Assembly (NCBI GenBank): GCA_028583605.1
Contig: CM053326.1
Coordinates: forward strand, 12,362,587 to 12,426,586
DNA: 64,000 bases
Origin: Dastarcus helophoroides
Lineage: Eukaryota > Arthropoda > Insecta > Coleoptera > Bothrideridae
Reading direction: 5' to 3'
The notes under the pieces are model-generated. The model searched no databases. It saw only the letters and a program-made list of their open reading frames with translations, and was not told the DNA's origin. Position 1 is the first letter of the stretch, and every line of letters starts with the position of its first letter. Below are positions 920 through 57,070 of the stretch, piece by piece. The position numbers and the translations under genes were made by a program.

Positions 920-1225
920 TATACAAGGTGAAAGAAATGGGGCAACGCTAAAGTGGAGATACTACACACCAAAATATTACGATTGAGCTCAACATGCCTC
1001 ATACTAATGTCGCTGGTCTAAGAGATACAGGGCCTTCAAAATTTAAATTTTATTCTGAAATTTCTCAATAGCTGAGACAGTTTTGATGCTATAAACCTAA
1101 TATTTAAAAATTTTATGTTTCTTGGTGTAAGAATTATGAATTTTTGGTTTATTTTGACTTTGCCCCTAGAGGGCGCTAGTTTCACATTATTATTTAAATA
1201 AATTAGAGCATGAGATAATATGCCT

Positions 1226-1752
1226 TGTATATACGAATATATACAAGTTTATTAGATGCAACTGAAATATAATTTCATAAGAATCTAATCAAAACTACAC
1301 TTGCAATTGCAAAGTTCACGTAGACGAGGCAAAGCTTGTATCACGGGTTGCTTCGCAACATTCATAGATACAAACGTCCTCGGCGTGACTTTACTTTCAT
1401 CTAGTTTTGACAAATGACCAATTAAATGTTCTGTAATTAAACAGTTAAACGTGCCTAAAATTGAAAATATGTATATTTTCATATTATGTATATTTTTTTA
1501 ATATTTTCAATTTTAAGCACGTTTAACTGTTTAATTATAGAACATTTAATTGGTCATTTGTCAAAACTAGATGAAAGTAAAGTCACGCCGATGACATTTG
1601 TATCTATGGATGTTGCGAAGCAACCCGTGATACAAGCTTTGCCTCATCTTCGTGAACTTTGCAATTGCAGTCTAATTTTCATTAGATTCTAATGAAATTA
1701 GATTTCAATTGCATAGTAATAAACTTGTATATATTCGTATATTCAAGGTTTA
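1226..1752. repeat. nested palindrome with ~250-bp arms
   Basis: The left arm (about 1226-1480) and right arm (about 1486-1752) are inverted copies meeting near 1483. Both outer ends carry a CTTGTATATA-type block and both inner ends the ATTTTCAATTTTA block. Because the arms mirror each other, the same ~50-residue open frame (containing IGHLSKLDESKVTP) appears on both strands. I do not recognise it and do not call it a gene. The inner end of each arm matches the sequence that follows the hammerhead ribozyme at 1963. Confidence 0.75.
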
Positions 1753-2035
1753 TTATTTCAGCAGAGAAGAATCCTTCAATTAGCACGAGCGAAAAAGTTT
1801 GCGTAATAAACAGGTAAAAGTCAGTTACAAGTCACAATGGGGGTTTACTCTCTTGGATACTTATACGACTCACTAACAGCTTTAAATTGGAAGTGTATAC
1901 AACCACCGTACCATGCTGATGAGACCAAGGAAGGTCGAAATTAGTCTATGGTTGCGGTTGTACATATTTTCAATTTTAAGCACGTTTAACTGTTTAAGTA
2001 CAGAGCATTTAATTGGGCACTTGTCAAATTAGAGC
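1501..2035 (+). repeat. direct repeat with 463-bp period spanning the hammerhead
   Basis: The ~70-bp block beginning ATATTTTCAATTTTAAGCAC at 1501 recurs at 1964 with few changes, a spacing of 463 bp. The second copy lies directly after the hammerhead motif, so the layout is body, ribozyme, start of next body. This is what a tandem ribozyme-bearing satellite or a multimeric retrozyme leaves behind. The first copy lacks the upstream ribozyme because the palindrome junction replaces it. Confidence 0.7.
1898..1962 (+). ncRNA. type I hammerhead ribozyme
   Basis: All core elements are present in order. Outer stem I is TACAACC (1898-1904) with GGTTGTA (1956-1962). Inner stem I is ACCATG (1910-1915) with TATGGT (1947-1952), including one G-U pair. 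The core CTGATGA is at 1916-1922. Stem II is GACC (1923-1926) and GGTC (1933-1936) around loop AAGGAA. GAAA is at 1937-1940. A minimal stem III (A-U then U-G around UA, 1940-1945) leads to GTC, with cleavage predicted after C1946. The internal loop in stem I is where natural hammerheads make loop contacts. Self-cleavage would cut a transcript of the repeat into unit-length RNA. Hammerheads of this type occur in cave-cricket satellite DNA, schistosome SINEs and Penelope-like elements. Confidence 0.85.
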
Positions 2036-4135: not shown

Positions 4136-4561
4136 GTGTTAGTTAAATTTCTAAATTCTCCATAAAAAAGTATTCTAATGATATGTTCATTGCAACAGAC
4201 AAGTTTTTTATATTCTTTTACTGAAGTCAAGAAGCATTGATTTCGTTTCTGATTTTATTTTTGCATATTTTTCAGTATACTACCATAAAATACGCAACCA
4301 CGCCCTATTTTACCAACATTATGGCTCTTCAAATAAGCAAGGATTCAATGGATAGGGATAAAAAAATTGGCATCCTGAATAGGTGAGTACTTCATTTTAT
4401 GCAATAAATATGCAGATTCCAGGGTAAAATTTTTCTCGACCTTGACTTGCATTCTTATGTGGAATTATAACTTATAAATATAACTCAATTATAACTCATC
4501 GTAAATAAAATGCCTCCAAAGTTATTGCTCGAAATAATTTTAAATTTTCTTTCTGTTATTA

Positions 4562-4822
4562 ATACTTTTTTTTGTTTGGTGGAATGGACTGGTCCTTGGT
4601 TATCTTCAAAAATTTAATTGCAAATCTTGTCCCCTGAAACCAAAAAGGATTAAAAACACAACAACTGTTGCTTAAACACGTTTCGATAGCCAAGCTATCA
4701 TTTTTAGGGAGATCTCTGAAGATGATAGATTGGCTATCGAAACGCATTAGAGCAACATTTGTTGTGTCTTTGAATCTTTCTTGGTTTCGTGGGACAAGAT
4801 TTGAATTTCAATTCCTTTTTAT
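4562..4822. mobile_element. palindromic hammerhead-bearing retroposon (family 1), copy 1
   Basis: This is a palindrome. The left arm runs from a T-tract and GGTGGAATGGACTGGTCC through CTTGTCCCCTGAAACC; the right arm returns through TCTTTCTTGGTTTCG to GGGACAAGATTTG. Relatives lie at 6401, 11275, 28515, 39392 and 56829. The T-tract (a poly(A) tail on the other strand) and target duplications at other copies indicate RNA-mediated insertion. There is no open frame. The centre contains the hammerhead-like motif listed next. Confidence 0.75.
4713..4751 (+). ncRNA. hammerhead-like motif in family 1, copy 1
   Basis: Stem I is TCT (4713-4715) with AGA (4749-4751). The core CTGAAGA (4716-4722) fits CUGANGA. 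Stem II is GATAG (4724-4728) with CTATC (4734-4738). GAAA (4739-4742) is followed by a very short stem III ending TT at 4747-4748. The copy at 6408 has GACAG/CTGTC in stem II, so the paired C-G has become U-A, a compensating change. Stem III is down to one pair here. Minimal stem III is known in Penelope-associated hammerheads that work as dimers; activity is not established. Confidence 0.5.
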
Positions 4823-6397: not shown

Positions 6398-6400
6398 AAG

Positions 6401-6515
6401 TATCTCTCTGAACATGACAGCTTGGCTGTCGAAACGCGTTAGGGCAACCTTTTTTATGTTTTTTAATCTTTCTTGGTTTCAGGGGACAAGTTCTCTATTT
6501 CGATCCTTGGGTTAT
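6401..6515 (+). mobile_element. family 1 retroposon, right-half fragment
   Basis: Only one arm is present, starting near the family centre and running through TCTTTCTTGGTTTCAGGGG. The hammerhead-like centre keeps stem II GACAGC (6416-6421) and GCTGTC (6425-6430), GAAAC (6431-6435) and GCGTT. The core reads CTGAACA (6408-6414), so the invariant G8 is C and this copy should not cleave. Confidence 0.7.
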
Positions 6516-13533: not shown

Positions 13534-15401
13534 TTAAAAACATATTTTTCTTCGGAAAGGATTTTTTTTTGCTAAATGAGGATGTTCGTCTAATAATGTA
13601 GCCAGATCCGAACAACTTTCATTTTGCATATTAAATTTGACTGTTAAGACGGCAGAAAATGTTTTTTCAGAAAGTTGCGACTTCTCACTGCTCCAATAAT
13701 CATTCCCTAGTGAAAATACCCTTTCAACAGCAGCATTAGCGCCTGGACAACATAAGGAAATTTCTATTAAAACTTTAAAATTTTCATGTGGGATACGTTC
13801 TACTCTAAAATGCCGAAAGATTTCTACCCTTCTTTTGTAAAGTTCTATTTTCTCATCGTTCCATTTCTTCCATTTTTCTTCATTTAAATATAAATTTACT
13901 CTTCGAATTTCTTCAAAGAGAAAATTGTCATTAATAACAATATCTTTTACTTCCTTCATTACAAATTCGACTGCTGAAGAAACTTCTTTCCATTCAATTT
14001 TACTATTTAGAAGGGTCCATTTGAAACAATTTAATGCTCTAAAGTTCACTATCCAGTCTTCGATATATTCATAGCAAATTTTATAAAATTGTTCAACTTC
14101 TTTTAAAAATTCATTTTTTATTCCGGGATTGGAATTTTCCAAAACGGTCAGTTTATTCATTAGAATTAGTGGTAAAAATCCATCATTAAATCTTGATTTA
14201 CATTGCAGTATGAAATCGTTTAATACAAACTTCTGTTGCTGAAATTTTATCTCCTTCAGTTTGTAGAGTAATTTTATGAAACAACGACGCCTGACTGTGA
14301 ATAAAATAAAGCATAACTTCTGACATATCGTTTTGAAAGAATTTCTTCAAAATTGTACGACATTTGTCAAGGCTTAAAAAATATGAACGTAGTGGATCAT
14401 ATAACTGCAAAACGCGTTCTAATGCTGGAGGTAAAGCAAGCCATCTGACTTTGGAATAACCAAGCAGTTTTTTGTATTGAACACCAGCCTCTTCACAATT
14501 TTTTTTCAAACTTGCTACCCGTATTGTAAACCGATTGAAATATAAATATATATTTGTAATAATTACTTCCACACCTACTGGCATTGAACTTGATGCTGTA
14601 TTGATGGCATTTGAGATAATGTGAAGCATTGCAACCAATTCACAAAATATTTCGCTTCAGAAGATCTTGTAATTTTGTGTACACATTATTGACACATTTA
14701 CGGGTGCGTCCTCCAAAATTAGTATTTGTGTTATCAGCGGAGAGCGCCAAAATTTTCTTATTCAAATTGTTATCTGTTATAACTCGAAATAAGTGATTAG
14801 ACAAAATGTCTGATGTTTCCCCTTCGATTGATTCCAAATTTAAAATCTTGATTTGAATACCTTTCCTAATATCGAAATACCTTACTAAAATTGAATAAAG
14901 TTTTATTTCATTGTAATTCGATGCCGTCTGATAGAATAGATATGATACAGAATCCAGATTTTCTCATAGCATTTTCTTGCAGTATTCATTAAATACGCTG
15001 GTTACGATAGACTCAAATTTTGTTCGCACACAAGAAAATTTTTCGTCACAACATTTTTTAAATAATTTAGTAGTGCAGCCCATGCTGCGAAAACTTTGAT
15101 TATGGATTATTGTGTGAAAAGCGAAAGTACCCTCCATAACTGCCAATTTTTTTTCATTAGCTCCAAAAGTATTCCCTTTAAAAAATGTTGTCAGTTTGGA
15201 TGTTGACGCTGCTGTGTCATGAGACGTTTTATGTACTTTAGTTTCAATGTATGCCGTTATTGCACTACGTCCATGAATTGCAATTGAAAATTCCCTATTG
15301 CAGATTGTGCATTTAACCAAGGAGTCATCATTTCGATTTTTAACTACAATGAACGGAAGCTCTTTTTTTAAATTTTCGTTTAAACGATTTTTCCTTTTTT
15401 G
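13534..15401 (-). pseudogene. hAT transposase pseudogene
   Basis: It is read from 15401 leftward, starting after an in-frame TAA at 15402-15404. The N-terminus has a BED-type zinc finger: C-x2-C in VKCTICNREF, then HGRSAITAYIETKVHK, where the first zinc-ligand His appears replaced by Tyr. An in-frame TGA lies at 14964-14966, and the same frame continues as NYNEIKLYSILVRYF and SADNTNTNFGG, the segment carrying the first catalytic Asp. A frameshift near 14640 interrupts the GCNASH segment, followed by GYSKVRWLALPPALERVL. A second frameshift lies between about 14160 and 14198. The C-terminus holds the hAT dimerisation domain (PGANAAVERVFSLGNDYW). With one stop and two frameshifts it cannot make a full protein. 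I am confident of the superfamily, not of the subfamily. Confidence 0.9.
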
Positions 15402-17551: not shown

Positions 17552-20080
17552 TTTTTTATGTTCAATCCACTCGCAAATGATAATCCTATTATGACTTCAA
17601 AGCACCGTGAGTAGGATGCGCAAACAAGGATAGATGGCGATGAAGCGCCTTCTTAAACTAGCATAGGTTGTACTTTTTGGGGAAAATTCAATTTGGTAAT
17701 AAGTTCCATAGCTTGAAAGTTCTGTAGAAAAAACAGTCTCCGTGGACAGAAGTCCTCACCATGTCAAGCTAGACCGTACAGGAATTTGATGTCTCCGACT
17801 TTATGTATGCCTCAAAAATCTCCCATGAAAGTACTTGTAGAAAAGAGTTAAATCACCAAGCCATCCAGCCTGTGCTCTAGTGTTTCGAGAGAATCGGTTA
17901 AACTCTCGTCATTAATTAGGCAAATCGCTCTTCTTCGGATCGAATCCAAATAAGCTAAAATGTGCTTTGCGGCTGAACTCCAAACATGAGAACATTATTC
18001 CAGTATTGGCCTAACTTGAGCTTTGTATAGTGTGAGTAGCTGATGAGATATCTGGATATCAAATGACATAGTCCAGGAGGAAGATCATAGGGTGTTAATT
18101 TGGCGAGAAGAGATCGAAGCCAGACTCTGTCGAAGGCCTTTGAGATATCCAATGCCACAAGACTAGCCTCACCGTGTTTTTCCATAGCTGAGTTAGAAAT
18201 ATAAGTAACAATATGCCAGTAGATCGCCAGTGGAACGTTGTTGTCTAAAACCGTATTGCCTGTCGGAGATGATTCTATTCCTCTCCAGATATTTAAGAAT
18301 ATCGATGTAATTAACCTTTTTCATTACTTTAGGTATAACGGGCACAAAAGATATAGGGCGATATTGTGAGCCAGATTTCTTTTTCTCTTTTGGGGATAGA
18401 CTGCACCCTAGCAGATTTCCAGAAGTTAGGGAATACACCTTTGTTGTAAGAGAGTGGAACAATTTGCTTAGGACAGAAGACAACTTTGGAGCTCCCTTTA
18501 TAAGAACAATAGCGACGATAACATCCAGGCAGGAAGTTTTGGATGTCTCGAGCCGGAGAAGAATCTTACTGTTCGTTGTCTGAAAACAACTTCAGGTATC
18601 GAAGAGCCAATCTTAGGCAGAATAAGAGGTTTTGCGTTTCCAGAATCAAGGTTGGAATTTTCAATAAACATTAAGGCTAACATGTCATCCTTTTCCTTGG
18701 AGGTAGTAATATTATTGCTATTTTCCTTGGAAGTAGTCGCAATGGTATTGTTGTCATCGAGTAAAGTTGGAAAATTTGTAGATATAAAATTCTTTCTAAT
18801 CGACTTTGCAAATCCCCAAAAGGACCTGGAACCGTCCGGATAGTTGATAAGCCTCTGGCGCATTTTACGATCGAAAACACTTTTTGTCTCGTCAATAACC
18901 TGTCTATAAAAATTTCGTGCATTTACAAAAGTGGTTCGAGTCCCGACTCGGGGATTATTTCTCCAACGACGATTTGCACGATTTTTGCAGGAGACAGCCC
19001 GAGCACATTTTTTGCTGAACCAAAATTTACTGGTGGTAGACTTCTTTTGGGAATGAGGAATTAAGCATTCCATACCAATCAGGATAGTTTCAGTGATGGA
19101 TTTGGTGACTGTGGAAGGATTGCCTGAGTTAAAACAGACTTCTTGCCAAGGGAAAGATGCAAATGAGATCTCCGAATTCGTTCCATTTTGAAGATTTAAA
19201 GTTCAAACTCTACGGAGCTGTATTTGAGAAAGAGTTGGTATATGAAGCGAGCGAGAGGCTGCTACAAGCTTGTGATCGGAATTTCCAAGCGGTGATGTCA
19301 CAGTCGTTGTATACGAATTTGGAGAATTTGTAAGGAAAAGGTCAAGTAGATTAGGTTGATGGGTATCTACATTAGGAATTCTTGTGGGTTCCTCAACCAA
19401 TTGCGATAGTCCATAAGTGATGGCGAAAGCCTCTGCTACACTTCCCGCGTTGGTCAGTTCAGGAAGAAAACCTTAACCGGGGATGTTGTGTACTTTGAAG
19501 TCATCGAGAAAGACGACCTCAACTTTTGGATAATTCGTCTGTAGGTGATCGAAGGTTACTGAGAGAAAAGAGAAAAGCTGTCTGTATGAGGGGTCGTTTG
19601 AAGGCAGATAAAGTAAACAAATGAATATTACGTCGCTTTTGGAGCAGAATTTCAGACAAATCACATCATGATCAGCAGATTCCAGTGCTTCTTCTCGTTG
19701 ACAGGATTGGTCTCTTTGCGTAAAAGCACAAATTCCCCTCTTGGGTCAAAACTTTGTGTACAAGTCGCAGTTAGGGAAGAGCAAATGGACCGTATTGATG
19801 GATGGAGAGACTTGGGTTTCTGTCAGAGACAGCACAAGGGTTCTTTCATTTTGAAGGTGTTGATCAGCCGAGCTTAGATTTGAGTTTAGCCCTCGAATGT
19901 TACAGAACATTCGAGTTTTGAATGAATTTTGAATAAATTATTTGAAAGAGACTTGCCCTGCTGCACATTCAAAATGTTCCGTTAATTTTAGATTCCCTCG
20001 CACACCGTCCACCCGGACATCCGAATGGAAGGGTAGTTTACGTCCGGGTTTTTTTGCACAAAGAGAATCCATCATCTTTA
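17552..20080 (-). pseudogene. non-LTR retrotransposon ORF2 relic (Jockey/CR1-like), copy 1
   Basis: Read right to left. A leader frame begins near 20077 (MMDSLCAKKPGRK). The endonuclease domain starts at FCNIRGLNSNL (about 19910), has the LVLSLTETQV motif and ends with GNSDHKLV (about 19270). A linker with FWFSKKCARAVSCKNRA follows, then the reverse-transcriptase fingers (QYGFRQQRSTGDLLAY) and palm motif A (ALDISKAFDRVW). After motif A the frame jumps to the C-terminal LYKAQVRP region (about 18025), so RT motifs B to E, including the catalytic YADD, are deleted. Several frameshifts and stops follow. The 3' end has TTTGCGAGT and an A-tract (T-run at about 17548-17558). Related copies lie at 41931 and 48674. 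The element would insert by target-primed reverse transcription. Confidence 0.85.
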
Positions 20081-23377: not shown

Positions 23378-23431
<54 letters not shown>

Positions 23432-24620
23432 AAATTTAAAGCAAAAAATTAACATTCTTGGAAAAAGTCTAAATTTTGAGGAAAAACTAATTAAATTTAT
23501 AATTAAATTTTTTCAAAATTAATCTCAGTTTCAAGTCCTTAAAAGTTCGAGCTTCCGAGGTAAAAGTTGAAAATTCCAAACTGGAACTTATAGTCTGAGT
23601 CTTAACTCAGAATTTCGAGAAAAATGTCTAAAATTAAAGAATAAAAGTCGACATCTCGATAAAAACGGTTATACTTACTAGGGAAAAATTAAATTTTATT
23701 TTGTCGAAATTTTAGAAAAAAAAATAATAAAAGGTACATACAAATTTGAAACTTCAAAAGAAAAAAGTTAAAATATCGAAAGAAGGTAAATACACTAACC
23801 AAAACCTTCTGAATTTTTTTTTTAAATTTTAAAGTTTTCAGCAACATTTTCAGAAAAAAATTGAATATTTGGGTTTAGAGTCAATATTTCTAAATTAAGG
23901 TATAAATTTTAAACATTCTGTTAAATTTTGAAGTTCTTTTTTCGAAATTTTAACTATTTTATCAAAATCTCAATTTAAAACTTTTCATTTTATATTTTTT
24001 GGTTTTTTTCATTTTCATTTATTTTTTTAAATTGATCTTTTTGATCCAAAGTTCAAAAAACCAAAGTCAAAACTGCAAAAATCAGTTCTGTTAGAAAAAG
24101 CGAATCAAAGTCAAAACATCACTAAAAAACCAAAATTGTGAAAGCAAAGTCTCTCACATTTTCAATTTTATTCGCCAAATTTTCTATATTCCAGGACATT
24201 TTAACTCTTAAGTATATAACTTAAGATTTGTATGAAAATTGCGAATTTAAACCTAAATTTAACATTTTTGCTACCCAGTTTGGAAATATTTAACGCGGAA
24301 ATGTTAAATAAAAATAATAATGATAATGTTTTCAATCAATAAGAGTCTGCAATAAAGAATAATTTAAATTTAAAATTTCTAAACCCGAAAATACGATTTA
24401 GTTTTACATAAAGTTCAGGGTTTTCTTGAAATTTGAACTCAAACTGAACTCAAATTCAGGGTTTCAGCTTGAAATTTTTTAACTTGAATAATAAAAAATA
24501 TTTTCCTTTTTTTTAAGGCAAGATCGGAGCAGTTACATGTTGTTATATTAAAAAAAAGACCAAAAAATTACTAAATTATGTTCGCAAATCAATTTTTAAT
24601 TCGAAAAACTTTTGAAAAAT
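22010..24620. repeat. A-rich array filling element A, with strand switch
   Basis: Units run in the T-rich orientation from about 22010 to 23380 and in the A-rich orientation from about 23440 to 24270. The turn coincides with an (AT)n tract. A CCCAGTTTGGAAATATTT block lies at about 24280. Open frames here are compositional. Confidence 0.7.
23382..23429. repeat. (AT)n microsatellite
   Basis: About 24 perfect AT dinucleotides, located where the surrounding array switches orientation. An alternating AT tract of this length can extrude as a cruciform. Confidence 0.95.
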
Positions 24621-24768
24621 CAAAAAAATGAGTCACCCGGAGCTGAATCGAAAACCGAAAAAAACCGTTATTTTTGTCGGAACGAAAATGGGAACTGAAC
24701 CGATATAAATCTTTTGTTGGAACGAAAACCGAAAACCGGAACGAAAAAAATAATGGTTCGAAGCCCTG

Positions 24769-28503: not shown

Positions 28504-28514
28504 GCATATTTTAT

Positions 28515-28752
28515 TATTTTTTTTTTTGGTGTAACGGACTAGTCCTTGGTTATCTTTAAAAAATGAAATACAAATCTTGTCCCCTGAAATCAAGAAAGAT
28601 TAAAAAAACAATGAAGGTTGCTCTAACGCGTTTCGATAGCCAAGTATCTCTCTGAAGATGACAGCTTGGCTAACGAAAAGCGTTGGAGCAACCTTTGTCG
28701 TGTTTTTTAATCTTTCTTGCTTTCAGGGGAAAAGATTTGTATTTCAATGTTT
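28515..28752. mobile_element. family 1 retroposon, full-length copy with 11-bp target duplication
   Basis: GCATATTTTAT flanks the copy on both sides (28504-28514 and 28753-28763). It starts with a T-tract and GGTGTAACGGACTAGTCC, passes a palindromic centre, and returns to CAGGGGAAAAGATTTG. The plus-strand centre keeps CTGAAGA (28652-28658) and part of stem II, but the second stem II strand has changed to GCTAAC and GAAA is followed by AGC, so this copy is probably inactive. The target duplication and oligo-T end indicate retroposition. Confidence 0.85.
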
Positions 28753-28763
28753 GCATATTTTAT

Positions 28764-38482: not shown

Positions 38483-40360
38483 CGACGTACGACTAAAGTT
38501 AGTAGGTTAAACTTTAAGCATCGTCTTCGGTTAGGCTGAAATTGATAAAAGGTCTCTCAATTTCACACTGATCTATTCTGTCTTGTTAGTTACGTGGTTA
38601 AAATTGTATTGTACCTTATTATGAAAACTACCTATATCCTAACATTTGGGGGAGGCCACCGTAAAGACTTTATGGCCACCAATGTTCTCTAGCAAAAAAG
38701 GGCAAGCTGACCGATGGTTTATTGATTTTCATGGGAAAGAAGGAATTATCCCATCTTGGCCCTAGATTCCAAGAGCATTAGTGACCATGACATAAATTTA
38801 CTAATTTTAGAAACTGAATCTGCATCTTGCAATCCTAAACATTGTCATATTCTTGAAATTTACAAGAAATCTTTTTCTCTAAATTTTCTAAAAATATTAT
38901 TTTTATATAAAATTTCTATTAAAATTTTGATTCAATTTTAACAAAAATAAACGAATTTTATGAAAAGTCGAAATCTTCAGAAAAAATTCAATTCTAAATG
39001 GAAATTGTTCAAAAATATATCGAACTTTGGGATAAAAGTTAAAATTATACGGAATCAATAAAAATATATAAGTTAATCAAAAAAGCCCACTTCAAAAAAA
39101 ATTCACGACTTTTGAAAACTACCTTGCAATTTCGAGAGAAAATACAATTTTACGAGGAAAATTAAAGTTTTGCGAATAAATAGTAATTTCTAAAGTATTT
39201 GGAAAAAAATGTTTGGAAAAGTCCAAACATTTTCAAAGCCATATTAAAAATAAAAACTTAACCTTTCTTAAACACTCAAAAAATGTCTAGAATTCGAAAA
39301 AAGTCAAAAATTTTCATTTTTATGAAAAGACACAACTTTCAGAAAAAATTGAATTTTGAGAAAGAAATATCAAAATATCCTAAAACATTGTCGAAACGCG
39401 TTAGAGCAACCTTTGTTGTGTTTTTTAATCTTCCTTGTTTTCAGGGGATAAGTTCTGTATTTCAATTTTCCTAAAACATTGTTCACAAAATTTAACATTT
39501 TAAAATTTTGAGGAAGAGGCGAATTTTATGAAAATGACCATTTAAAAATAAGTCGAAAATTCGAAAAAAGGTAAATTTTGAGGAAGAGGCGAATTTTATG
39601 AAAATGACTATTTAAAAAAAAGTCAAAATTTGGAGAAAAAAAAAGAATTTACCAGGAAAAAGGAGAACTGAGACCTTTCTAGAAATATCAAATATGAGCT
39701 TTTAAAAAAATAATAAAAATATCCTGAAAAAGTCAAACTTTAAGAAACCAGTCAAAAAAAGATTGAAATTTCTACAAAAAGCTAAAATGTTGTGTCGGAA
39801 TTGAAAAAAAAACGAACTTTTGAGAAAACTTTGAAATGGGCAAAAAATTCCAAATTTTCTAGAGAGAATCAAATGTTAAAAATAAGTCAAAATTTTAAAG
39901 AAAATGGTCAAAGCTCCGAGAAGAAAACGAAATTAGAAAATGATCGAAAATGCAGGAAAGGATCCAAATTTTGAGATTTTATTGAAATTAAGAAGAAAAG
40001 CATATTTTAAGAAAAAACCGAAATTTAAAAAAATCGAAATTTCTTGGGTGAATAAACAAGCTAAAATTTGCAGGATTTAAAAAAAGTCAAAATTTTTAGA
40101 CAATGTTTAATTTCGAGAAATGGCGAAATATGGGAAAAAACGACGAACTCTTAAATAAAAATTCGAAATTTTGACAAAGTCATGTTTAATAAAAGAAGTC
40201 GAATTTTATGAATAATTGTGAAATTTCAAAAGAAAAAGACAAATATTTTTTAAAAAATACGAAATTTTGAGAAAAACGCCTAAATTTCAAAAAAAAATTC
40301 GAAGACCGAATGAATTTTGAAAAAGAAAAGAAAATTTTTGAAAAAAGTCCTCGAGTTCAA
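38483..40360 (+). repeat. A-rich short tandem array
   Basis: After a short mixed stretch to about 38880, units in the A-rich orientation continue to about 40360. The segment GTAAATTTTGAGGAAGAGGC at 39570 repeats the one near 39510, a local ~65-bp duplication. A 77-bp retroposon fragment interrupts the array (39392-39468). Confidence 0.65.
39392..39468 (+). mobile_element. family 1 retroposon, 5'-truncated insertion with 14-bp target duplication
   Basis: TCCTAAAACATTGT occurs exactly on both sides (39378-39391 and 39469-39482). The insert begins CGAAACGCGTTAGAGC, inside the hammerhead-like core, and runs to the family end near TTTCAATTT. A duplication this long with 5' truncation is typical of target-primed reverse transcription. 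Confidence 0.85.
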
Positions 40361-41609: not shown

Positions 41610-41925
41610 CTTTATGGTTTGAGTTGTACAACAACTTGTTTAACAGTTGGTTTGACTTGTCTAGCGGTTGGTTTGAGTTGTACAATTACTTGTCTAATAG
41701 TTGTTTTGACTTCTCTAGCAGTTGGTTTGAGTTATACAACTTAAACCAACTGTCAAACCAATTGTCAAAATAACTCCGAGACAAGTCAAATCAACTGTTA
41801 GACAAGTAGTTGTACAACTCAAACCAACTGCTAGACAAGTCAAACCAACTGTTAGACAAGTAGTTGTACAACTTAAACCAACTGCTAGACAAGTCAAACC
41901 AATTGTTAGACAAATAGTTGTACAA
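41610..41925. repeat. hyper-palindromic minisatellite
   Basis: Short units such as GTTTGAGTTGTACAA and TTGTCTAACAGTTGG run in one orientation up to about 41735. Their complements (CAACTCAAACCAACTG, TAGACAAGTAG) then run on to 41925. The two halves form a large inverted repeat of small tandem repeats, able to fold into many alternative hairpins. A 60-codon open minus frame made of Thr/Gly/Leu/Cys repeats is a by-product. Confidence 0.85.
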
Positions 41926-41930
41926 TAACG

Positions 41931-42618
41931 GACGGTAAAATCCTTCCGATGGGATCTAATATATATCTCCTAGGAGTGAATACGAGCACTAACTTCTCTT
42001 GGGACGATCATGTGCGCGCCATTGCCAAATCCGCCTCTCAGAAGCTAGGCTTTCTTTTAAGAGCTAAAAAGTACTTCACATCTCATCAGCTATTAAGACT
42101 ATACAAAGCTCAAGTTAGGCCAACACTAGAATACTGTTCTCATGTTTGGAGTTTAGCCCCAAAACACACGTTAGCTCTCTTGAATTCAATTCAAAGAAGA
42201 GCGATTCACCTAACTGATGACGAGAGTCTGACCGATTCTCTCGAAACGCTAGAGCACAGGCGTATGGTTGGTGACTTGTCTCTTTTCTACAAGTACTATC
42301 ATGGAAGATGCTCGCAGAAACTAATAGGATTAATCCCCCCAAGGGCAAGCTTGTTGAGGCGTACTAGACAATCGGAGACAAATTCCTGTGGGGTCCATCT
42401 TGACACAGCGAGGACTTCTGTCTACGGAGACTCTTTTTTCTATAGAACTTCCAAGTTATGGAACTTGTTACCGAAAGGAATTTTCCCCAAAAATTACAAC
42501 CAATCCTTGTTTAAGAAGGCGGTTCATCGCCATCTATCCTTGTTTCCGCATTCTACTCGCAGTGATTTGAAAGCATAATGGGGTTACCCTTTGCGAGTAA
42601 ATTAAACTTAAAAAAAAA
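41931..42618 (+). pseudogene. non-LTR retrotransposon 3' end (copy 2), 209-codon open frame
   Basis: A 5'-truncated copy of the family at 17552 and 48674. The open frame 41949-42578 covers the region after the RT palm: LGVNTSTNFSWDDHVRAIAK, LYKAQVRPTLEYCSHVW, a DESLTDSLETLEHRR block and the terminal LWNLLPKGIFPKNYNQSLF. It has no catalytic residues and presumably no function alone. The 3' UTR ends TTTGCGAGTAAATTAAAC, then an A-tract near 42610. It is the best-preserved copy of this region in the window. Its start coincides with the minisatellite end. Confidence 0.85.
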
Positions 42619-48673: not shown

Positions 48674-51095
48674 AAGTTGAGGAACCCACAAGAATTCCTG
48701 ATGTAGTTACTTATCAACCTAACCTACCCGACCTTTTCCTTACAAATTCACCAAATTCGTATAAAATCTCTGTGACATCACCGCTTGGAAATTCGAATCA
48801 CAAGCTTGTAGCAGCCTCTCGCTCGCTTCATATACCATCTCCTTTCTAGACGCAGTCCCGTAGCGTTTGGCACTTTAACTCTGCAAGCTGGGAAGAATTA
48901 AGAGACTTCTTTGCATCTTTTTCATGGCAGGAAGCCTGCTTTAACTCAAACAACCCTTCCTTAGGAAATCTTGGTTGAGTATGCAGGCTGTCTCCTGCAA
49001 AAATCGCGCATATCTTCGTTGGCGAAATAATCCCTCAGTCGAGACTCGGACCATATTTGTAGATACACGAAATTCTTGTAAACAGGTTATTGATGAGGCA
49101 AAAAGTGATTTCGATCGTAAAATGCGTCAGAGGCTTATCAACTCTCCGAACGGTTTCAGGTCCTTTTGGAAATTTGCAAAGTCGATTTAAAAGAATTTTA
49201 CACCTACAAATTTTCTACCTTTACTCAATGAAAATAGCAATATTATTAATACTTTCAAGAAAAAGGCTGACACGTTAGCCTCAATTTTTGCTGAAAATTC
49301 CAATCTTGATTTTCGAAACGCAAAACATTCTATTCTTCCTAAGGATGGCACTTCGATGGCTGAAGTTAACTTCAGACAACACACAGTCAGGAAGATTCTC
49401 CTTGAGCTCGACATCTTTAAAGCTTCTGGCCTTAATGGCATTCCTACTATTGTTCTTAAGAAGTGCGCCCCAGAGTTGATTTCTGTTCTAAGCAAAGTGT
49501 TCATACTCTCTTACAACAAAGGTGTATTCCCAAACATCTGGAAATCTGCTAGTGTGCAGCCTGTTCCTAAAAAGGGAAAAAGGAATCTGGCTAACAACTA
49601 TCGCCCTATATCTTTGTTACTCGTTATATCTAAAATGATGGAAGAGGTTATCAACACCGAGATTCTCAAATATCTGAAGAAAAATAGAATCATCTCCGAC
49701 AGGCAATACGGTTTTAGACAACAACTTTCCACTGGCGATCTATTGGCATATGTTACTCATACCTGCAACTCAGCTATGGAAAAACACGGTGAGACTAGAA
49801 TTGTGGCACTGGATATCTCAAAGGCTTTCGACAGTGTCTGGCACTGATCTCTCCTAGCCAAATTAACATCTTATGGACTTCCTCCTGGAGTTTGTCATGT
49901 GATATCCAATTTTTTTGCTGACAGATCTCTTCAGGTCGTCGTCGATGGCATTTCATCCTAGCCCCTTGCGATTAACGCAGGGGTGCCTTAGGGGTCTGTT
50001 CTATCTCCTACTCTATTTCTGTTACACAGAAATGATCTCTTAGCTTCAACTTCTGATCCTATATACAGTTACGCAGATGAAAGTAACCTTGTGTCATCTT
50101 TTTTCTCCGACAAACCATTATCTCTCGCTGCTTCAAATCGATTAAGGGAACAGAAGATACAGACGATTAATCGGGATCTCAAAATTATTCTGGAATGGGG
50201 TAAGAACAATTTGGTCGAATTCAACGCTTCAAAAACTGAGGCCGGGGTTTTCTCTAAGAAAACATCAAGGGATAATGCAATAAATATACTAATGGATGGT
50301 AAAATCCTTTAGATGGAATCTAATCTATGTATCCTATTCAACGCTTCAAAAACTCAGGCCGGGGTTTTCTCTAACAAAACATCAAGAGATAATGCAACAA
50401 ACATACTAATGGATGGTGAAATCCTTTCGATGGGATCTAATCTATCTATCCTAGGAGTGAATGCGAGCATTAACTTCCGTTGGGACGATCATGTGCACGC
50501 CATTGCCAAATCCGCCTCTCAGAAGCTAGGCTTTCTTTTAAAGCTAAAAAGTACTTCACATCTCACCAGATATTCATACTATACAAAGCTCAAGTTAGGC
50601 CAACACTAGAATACTTGTTCTTATGTTTGGGTTCAGCCCCAAAACACACTTTAGCTTTCTTGGATTCAATTCAAAGAAAATCGATTCTCCTAATTGATGA
50701 CGAGAGTCAGACCGATTCTCTCGAAACACTAGAGCACGTGCGTATGGTTGGTGACTTGTCTTTTTTCTACAAGTACTATCATGGAAGATGCTCGCAGAAA
50801 CTAATAGGATTGATCCTCCCAAGGGCAAGATTCTTGAGGCTTACTAGACAGTCGGAGACAGAAAATTCCTGTGCGGTCTATCTTGACACATTGAAGACTT
50901 CTGTCTGCGGAGATTTTTTTTCTGTAGAACTTCCAACTTATGGAACCTGTTACCGAGAGGAAGTTTCCCCAAAAATTACAACCTATCCTTGTTTAAGAAA
51001 GCGGTTCATCGCCATCTATCCTTGTTTCCGCATCCTACTCGCAGTGCTTTGAAAGCATAATGGGGTTACCCTTTGCGAGTGAATTTAACTTAAAA
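48674..51095 (+). pseudogene. non-LTR retrotransposon ORF2 relic (Jockey/CR1-like), copy 3
   Basis: The copy is 5'-truncated within the endonuclease domain (VEEPTRIPDV, then SPLGNSNHKLV). It continues through the linker (VSCKNRAYLRWRNNP) and RT fingers (NNYRPISLLLVISKMMEE, YGFRQQLSTGDLLAY) to palm motif A (ALDISKAFDSVWH, about 49810-49847), where a stop follows. Motif C at about 50068 reads YADE instead of YADD, so a catalytic Asp is lost. A 117-bp tandem duplication (50221-50454) disrupts the region after it. The C-terminal block LYKAQVRPTLEY to the DESQTDSLETLEHVR segment lies at 50560-50720, with frameshifts. The 3' UTR ends TTTGCGAGTGAATTTAAC and a short A-tract. Compared with copy 1 it keeps the palm but lacks most of the endonuclease. 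Confidence 0.85.
50221..50454 (+). repeat. 117-bp tandem duplication inside retrotransposon copy 3
   Basis: The block starting TCAACGCTTCAAAAACT occurs at 50221 and again at 50338 with few differences. The other two copies have it once or not at all, so the duplication happened after this insertion. Confidence 0.85.
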
Positions 51096-56820: not shown

Positions 56821-56828
56821 TAGAATTT

Positions 56829-57062
56829 GAAAAATTGAAATACAGTACGTGTCCCGTAAAACCAAGAAAGATTAAAAAACACAACAAACGTTGATCTAAC
56901 GCGTTTCGGCAGCCAAACTGTTATCTTCAGAGAGATACTGGCAGTCGAAACGCGTTAGAGCAAGTTTGTTCTGTTTTTTAATCTTTCTTGGTTTCAGGGG
57001 ACAAGTTCTGTATTTCAATTTTTGAAGATAACCAAGAACCAGTCCGTTCCACAAAAAAAAAA
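56829..57062. mobile_element. family 1 retroposon, full-length copy with 8-bp target duplication
   Basis: TAGAATTT flanks the copy (56821-56828 and 57063-57070). It ends CCGTTCCAC followed by a run of about ten A, a poly(A)-like tail. The hammerhead-like core is best kept on the minus strand: CTGAAGA (complement of 56924-56930), stem I AGAG (56931-56934) against ATCT (56894-56897), and GAAAC plus GCGTT (complement of 56898-56907). Stem II has only three clean pairs here. The opposite arm has lost the CUGANGA box. Confidence 0.8.
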
Positions 57063-57070
57063 TAGAATTT

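Follow-up and report, generated by a model that had tools for sequence, protein, structure and literature searches.

The closest described systems to the locus reported here are the PLEs and the animal non-LTR retrozymes, both summarized from extracts of the papers cited. On AT-rich DNA the purified Anolis PLE favours ATT, and both strands are cut and extended; it starts RT within an AC-rich stem loop 111–118 nt into the ORF, using a template that needs the first 172 nt of the ORF (PMC11167929). The hammerhead of this element overlaps the ORF start, with its cut 26 nt past the start codon; it was dispensable for insertion in vitro and cleaved only with the protein present (PMC11167929). In rotifer (Adineta vaga) PLEs, direct and inverted pLTRs lie head to head, one of them carries a tail, and the TSDs measure 8–10 bp (PMC3846280). 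The hammerheads of PLEs are characterized as minimal forms without helix III or tertiary contacts (PMC6155905, PMC7761336). Animal non-LTR retrozymes are tandem units of 150–450 bp with type I hammerheads, low GC and TSDs of >4 bp, and the authors describing them consider PLEs strong candidates for mobilizing them (PMC7229834). Both the role of the hammerhead in PLEs and the enzyme that spreads animal hammerhead repeats are left open in the extracts of PMC11167929, PMC7229834 and PMC7761336.

The window, meaning the whole stretch of 64 000 nucleotides of Dastarcus helophoroides DNA that was analysed, carries a hammerhead motif that had been noticed in a first-pass annotation. The motif was found to lie in a retroelement copy of 814 bp (1212–2025), bounded by the exact 12-bp TSD AAATTAGAGCAT. 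This enclosing element, its TSD, the overlap with an ORF and the repeat family described below go beyond what that annotation saw. The features of the locus are as follows.

1200–1211, no strand: left copy of the TSD AAATTAGAGCAT, exact 12-bp repeat
1212–1470, minus strand: inverted (head-to-head) arm, with its outer end at initiation site 2 (unit ~260)
1471–1500, no strand: AT-rich junction between the arms, a 30-nt spacer
1501–1963, plus strand: repeat unit with the ribozyme at its end, 463 bp here (tandem copies elsewhere are spaced 466 bp)
1554–1574, plus strand: weak predicted hairpin whose loop, UCAAAAC, is initiation site 1 (from the fold and end mapping)
1756–1766, plus strand: region of initiation site 2 (unit 256–266), from the ends of copies
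1898–1962, plus strand: hammerhead ribozyme motif (from the descriptor, Rfam score, fold and family copies)
1916–1922, 1937–1940 and 1945–1946: hammerhead core blocks, with the predicted cut after 1946
1913–2025, plus strand: start of a relic open frame, overlapping the ribozyme, with ATG at 1913 and a second in-frame ATG at 1919
1964–2025, plus strand: tail of 62 bp, a second copy of the unit start, ending at initiation site 1
2026–2037, no strand: right copy of the TSD AAATTAGAGCAT, exact 12-bp repeat

Every conserved nucleotide claimed in the first-pass annotation was located, with CUGAUGA at 1916–1922, GAAA at 1937–1940 and GUC at 1944–1946, the last within UUAGUC (1941–1946). Stem II is formed by GACC/GGUC (1923–1926/1933–1936), and the whole of GACC-AAGGAA-GGUC spans 1923–1936. 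Stem I was also as proposed, consisting of a core-proximal inner helix of 6 bp (1910–1915/1947–1952) and an outer helix of 7 bp (1898–1904/1956–1962) past a 5 × 3 internal loop, and in the predicted fold extra pairing prolongs it outwards. Stem III had been given as two pairs and was reduced on inspection to one closable pair, A1940–U1945; a U1941–G1944 pair would leave a loop of 2 nt. Between two strands, AUUAGU and AUUAGU could form six pairs, two of them G-U. The motif has the complete conserved core, stems I and II and the A15.1–U16.1 pair, and is classed as type I on these features. Its earlier description as a type I sequence of the kind with a short stem III, associated with retrotransposons, is supported. 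Self-cutting by the ribozyme after GUC is predicted from the sequence.

The motif scored 22.7 bits against the Rfam type I covariance model (RF00163, Hammerhead_1), the check suggested in the first-pass annotation, and this is under the gathering score of 34; no Rfam family was above its gathering score anywhere in the window. When the whole window was scanned by E-value, the top entry of the hammerhead clan was HH9 (RF02275, Hammerhead_HH9; 21.6 bits, E 0.9). The core and the order of the helices are common to the window motif and to both RF00163 and RF02275, but the motif is below both gathering cut-offs and its stem III is nearly missing. When the window was shuffled by dinucleotides 2500 times, a descriptor requiring the core, stem II (4/4) and the inner helix of stem I (6/6) had 15 matches, and three if an outer helix of ≥6 bp was required as well; a looser hammerhead descriptor matched in 35 of 400 shuffles. 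The motif is real as a sequence; taken by itself, its origin by chance is unlikely but not impossible, and context is needed. This question is settled by the repeat family.

The MFE predicted for the window monomer was −24.9 kcal/mol, with the core CUGAU paired with AUUAG; in the same model, which has no tertiary contacts, the hammerhead pairing reached −17.0 kcal/mol. RNAfold favoured folds that trap the core. Because the predicted monomer folds trap the core, the label of a natural fast-cleaving arrangement is unsupported, and the published PLE hammerheads, as minimal variants, do not favour it either. Matches to miRNA models at 1439–1721 correspond to the foldback arms and their junction, and those at 1878–1982 and 1880–1974 to the extended stem I; all were far below cut-off and were set aside.

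ATG 1913 lies within stem I of the ribozyme, and the frame crosses the ribozyme and resumes in the unit at 1501; read from 1913 to 1963 and then from 1501 onwards, the relic frame has 80 codons to the first stop. The predicted cut is 34 nt past ATG 1913 and 28 nt past ATG 1919. In the window copy, each arm extends as far as the 3′ base of stem I (1471–1500 and 1961–1964), 14–17 nt past the predicted cut. Junctions vary at other loci, and a 5′ end defined by the ribozyme is not claimed. The insertion is contained in an older host element (920–2846) with terminal inverted repeats of ~175 bp (941–1114/2648–2822, 83%), and a second, diverged foldback is found at 2039–2623.

Other repeats were observed across the window. 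Broken transposase-like ORFs occupy the minus strand at 13534–15401; by eye we take these to be hAT-like, and the only Pfam match was a weak one to DUF577 in one ORF. For the 270-aa ORF in this region, identity was 77% to a Galleria mellonella protein, over 22% of the ORF length, and 90% to an unnamed protein, over 54%. LINE-type reverse-transcriptase fragments (RVT_1) are located at 17955–18591 (minus strand) and 49191–49847 (plus strand), the latter with named protein relatives from Pararge, Callosobruchus, Phaedon, Armadillidium, Mythimna and Galleria. Two ORFs on the plus strand (41910–42578 and 50474–51052) are LINE-like by eye and 91% alike over ~695 bp of DNA, with no Pfam match. A dispersed, partly self-complementary repeat occurs at 4559–4817, 6398–6508, 28511–28762, 39389–39469 and 56821–57069, and some of its copies draw miRNA-model matches below cut-off. 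The first-pass annotation had placed the motif in an insect-type repeat; the genome is arthropod-like, and the named relatives of two window ORFs, from moths or butterflies, beetles and woodlice, are compatible with an insect but are not proof of one.

A search of the genome (538.9 Mb, 50 contigs) for the ribozyme sequence, as had been advised, revealed an abundant family. At the DNA level there were at least 43 genome matches to the ribozyme arm (1761–2028; 40 of 1940 candidates scored), and at the protein level there were at least 150 matches to the 73-aa ORF start (150 of 3972 candidates scored). The frame was open over 72–73 codons with no internal stop in 150/150 scored copies; it was 89 aa long in most of these and 138 aa in the longest, and no long ORF was present among the 150. 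Tandem copies are spaced exactly 466 bp apart and the head-to-head arrangement is frequent. Complete ribozyme copies number 39, that of the window and 38 in the loci retrieved, and ACUAGU, a perfect palindrome, is found in 36 of the 39 (the window has AUUAGU). Two ribozymes could share this palindrome as a 6-bp stem III, which fits cleavage as a dimer. Stem II is GGCC/GGCC in most family copies. The common variable core position is N7 (33 U and 21 C of 54), and ATG 1919 is absent in the N7=C copies (21/54).

Within-family base-pair covariation was no better than in shuffles. Variation in the core was found in 2 of 648 cells, compared with 136 of 9510 elsewhere (Fisher p 0.013), and core-specific constraint was dropped after column resampling, in which 3808 of 20 000 sets had as few variant types and 2475 as few cells. 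Changes at the three codon positions of the ORF numbered 84, 85 and 77 across 110 segments, with no bias, and coding selection on the relic ORF is not claimed, the codon positions being alike; three of the four sites that distinguish the tail from both arms are synonymous. Nothing matching the 73-aa peptide of the ORF start was found in Pfam or PDB, nor in the protein collection, where the peptide shared too few words with any entry. The phage collection gave no match, and the viral contigs contained neither a relative of the ORF peptide nor the exact hammerhead pattern.

A second hammerhead family is represented by locus L001, the sole genome match to RF00163 at E ≤ 0.001 (32.6 bits, below cut-off; 73 of 91 202 candidates scored), while in the control none of 14 genomes had a match. 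L001 is a head-to-head insertion with the 11-bp TSD TTTGAAAAATC. A related repeat near 24611 of the window holds its empty site. The window copy of that repeat (23426–24753), which is the empty site of L001, is ~83% like the host repeat of L001 (L001 86–1800). The core is kept in L001 except at N7, with a different loop II and a palindromic ACCGGU at stem III. Relative to the window family, stem II changes from G-C to A-U and from C-G to U-A and stem I from U-A to A-U, making three compensatory double changes in a comparison of only two families. A second, inverted ribozyme copy in L001 has lost the CUGANGA box, and the ends of the insertion are 61 and 204 nt past the predicted cut, again at two different sites.

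Exact TSDs of 10–14 bp were identified in 22 of the 39 loci selected by DNA. Exact TSDs of ≥10 bp flank 18 of the first 30 loci, compared with 3 of 870 mismatched pairs of left and right flanks; one of the 18 is of low complexity (AAAAAAAAAT), and the other 12 of the first 30 have no TSD of ≥10 bp. Exact TSDs were also found in 4 of 9 further loci. The right ends of the 39 loci fell at unit 63–72 (site 1) in 30, at unit 259–271 (site 2) in seven and elsewhere in two. After correction for the TSD, site 1 corresponds to unit 59–67 in 14 loci, which is ORF nt 110–118 from ATG 1913, and site 2 to unit 256–265 in four loci, which is ORF nt 307–316; ~196 nt separate the two. When one copy was folded, site 1 formed the loop, UCAAAAC, of a 7-bp hairpin, a weak structure that 32 of 200 shuffles folded equally well. 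The 5′ truncation of the copies is variable and their arms are unequal in length, while the 3′ ends are fixed at the two sites.

All 25 classifiable head-to-head loci had site 1 at one outer end and site 2 at the other (13/13, 3/3 and 9/9 new loci), in two similarity-ranked, non-random samples, neither of which would exclude same-site pairs. The samples came from different queries, a DNA arm tolerating either site and a protein stretch favouring site 2 at both ends. In this tally, L022, L057 and L062 have an end at neither site, and L044, L052 and L068 repeat L034, L051 and L006, respectively. The end sites are observed, and their pairing is a new regularity in the sampled loci; presumably one site is used on each target strand. 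The rule was not found stated in the extracts of PLE literature examined (PMC11167929, PMC3846280), and the papers listed for Penelope with twin priming do not, by their titles, concern it. It agrees with the published tail, which is borne by one inverted pLTR. Twin priming as known from LINE-1, taken alone, leaves an arm overlap of up to 260 bp and the two fixed end sites unexplained. One locus (L036, 438–2706) is a single insertion with a 12-bp TSD and multimeric arms on both sides, of about two and three units, which suggests a multimeric or circular template.

It is highly probable, in our judgement, that the hammerhead belongs to an abundant 466-bp repeat that has PLE-like ends and, in the copies scored, no RT gene of its own, which is likely to have been copied in trans by the RT/endonuclease of a PLE. 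In its anatomy the family agrees with target-primed reverse transcription of the PLE type at every structural point tested. The hammerhead overlaps the ORF start and has its predicted cut 34 or 28 nt downstream of an ATG, compared with ~26 nt in a PLE, the TSD-corrected 3′ ends fall at ORF nt 110–118 (14 site-1 loci with a TSD), compared with an internal RT start at 111–118 nt in a PLE, and the inverted copies are head to head, with a one-sided tail and TSDs. PLEs are further recognized by a single ORF with a telomerase-like RT and a GIY-YIG endonuclease, which was absent from the 150 scored copies, the ORF start having no Pfam match; for this reason the family is filed as a non-autonomous PLE-type repeat and not as a PLE. 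Since every ORF in the scored copies is too short to encode an RT or endonuclease, mobilization of the family is likely to occur in trans.

A possible sequence of events can be proposed. The unit retains the parts that a PLE template would be expected to require, namely the hammerhead, the overlapping ORF start and the first ~240 nt of the ORF, now a relic. Tandem copies would be transcribed into multimer RNA, which the hammerheads would cut after …GUC, probably by pairing into dimers at the palindrome ACUAGU. The RNA would then be bound by a PLE protein, which would nick both strands of an AT-rich target DNA, and the nicked strands would prime RT internally, at site 1 (ORF nt 110–118) on one strand and at site 2 (ORF nt ~307–316) on the other. 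The cDNAs would extend 5′-ward across one or more units and then join head to head; alternatively, one side would be lost, giving a 5′-truncated copy. A bolder version is that the two-site rule is obligate, each head-to-head insertion being assembled from two reverse transcriptions whose internal start sites always differ, one on each target strand, as though a dimer of the PLE protein offered site 1 to one of the nicked strands and site 2 to its partner, and that the 466-bp repeat is a PLE-derived retrozyme linking both classes of hammerhead retroelement; on this proposal we regard the case for and against as evenly balanced.

The AT-rich tandem units of 466 bp, the TSDs of >4 bp and the lack of a long ORF match descriptions of animal non-LTR retrozymes (extract of PMC7229834), and the window also contains fragments of LINE RTs; a retrozyme independent of PLEs, its circular RNA copied by a LINE-type enzyme, is nevertheless unlikely to account for a hammerhead that has no real helix III and overlaps an ORF start, for 3′ ends at the published PLE initiation position (PMC11167929), or for head-to-head copies with two fixed end sites, which fit PLE descriptions (PMC3846280). 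A foldback DNA transposon or satellite, with no RNA step and an incidental hammerhead-like sequence, is very improbable: it would not be expected to show TSDs varying from 10 to 14 bp, variable 5′ truncation, 3′ ends fixed at two sites and unequal arms, although the long inverted repeats, the tandem arrays and the position of the insertion within an element having terminal inverted repeats are as such an element would have them. That the motif resembles a hammerhead by chance and has no ribozyme function is scarcely credible, for while the Rfam score is below cut-off, three of 2500 shuffled windows match the descriptor as well, the monomer fold traps the core and core conservation is not significant, the loci retrieved hold 38 further complete copies, L001 keeps the core (N7 apart) with stems changed on both sides, and the motif is located at an ORF start, as in PLEs.

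In this family, a short natural template with a hammerhead and ORF start is available in many copies whose ends can be read, and a hammerhead tandem repeat is tied to an initiation position of the PLE type. The two-site rule (25/25) is a sharp rule for the origin of both insertion ends and is testable with purified PLE protein.

The family may be compared with the known systems as they are described in the extracts of the papers cited. Short, AT-rich tandem repeats of type I, dimers to multimers and TSDs of >4 bp are shared with the animal non-LTR retrozymes (PMC7229834), and the low-GC type I units agree with that class, their 466 bp being slightly above its range of 150–450 bp. Most retrozyme hammerheads are canonical, with helix III, whereas the window motif has one closable stem III pair; the extract of PMC7229834 mentions no relic ORF start. 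Circular RNA has been shown for animal retrozymes (PMC7229834); the window family was analysed here as DNA. The type I dimers of newt and axolotl are similar in having a one-pair helix III, with a palindromic tetraloop cap and low monomer activity, but they belong to a different repeat and loop 1–loop 2 contacts are reported for them (PMC7229834). In comparison with PLEs, the window family is without a long ORF in the scored copies and its unit is only 466 bp. Its sites are ~196 nt apart, compared with a published inter-site tail of 30–40 bp; its TSDs are 10–14 bp, compared with 8–10 bp in rotifer PLEs (PMC3846280); and its ends point to two sites, whereas for the PLE of PMC11167929 no difference in start site between the strands was observed. 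AT-rich targets and tandem copies are common to PLEs and the window family. With Poseidon_Ac (PAc) the family shares a hammerhead over the ORF start and 3′ ends at ~111–118 nt of the ORF (PMC11167929), and with Pen2a of Adineta vaga it shares head-to-head arms, a one-sided tail on the inverted copy and TSDs (PMC3846280).
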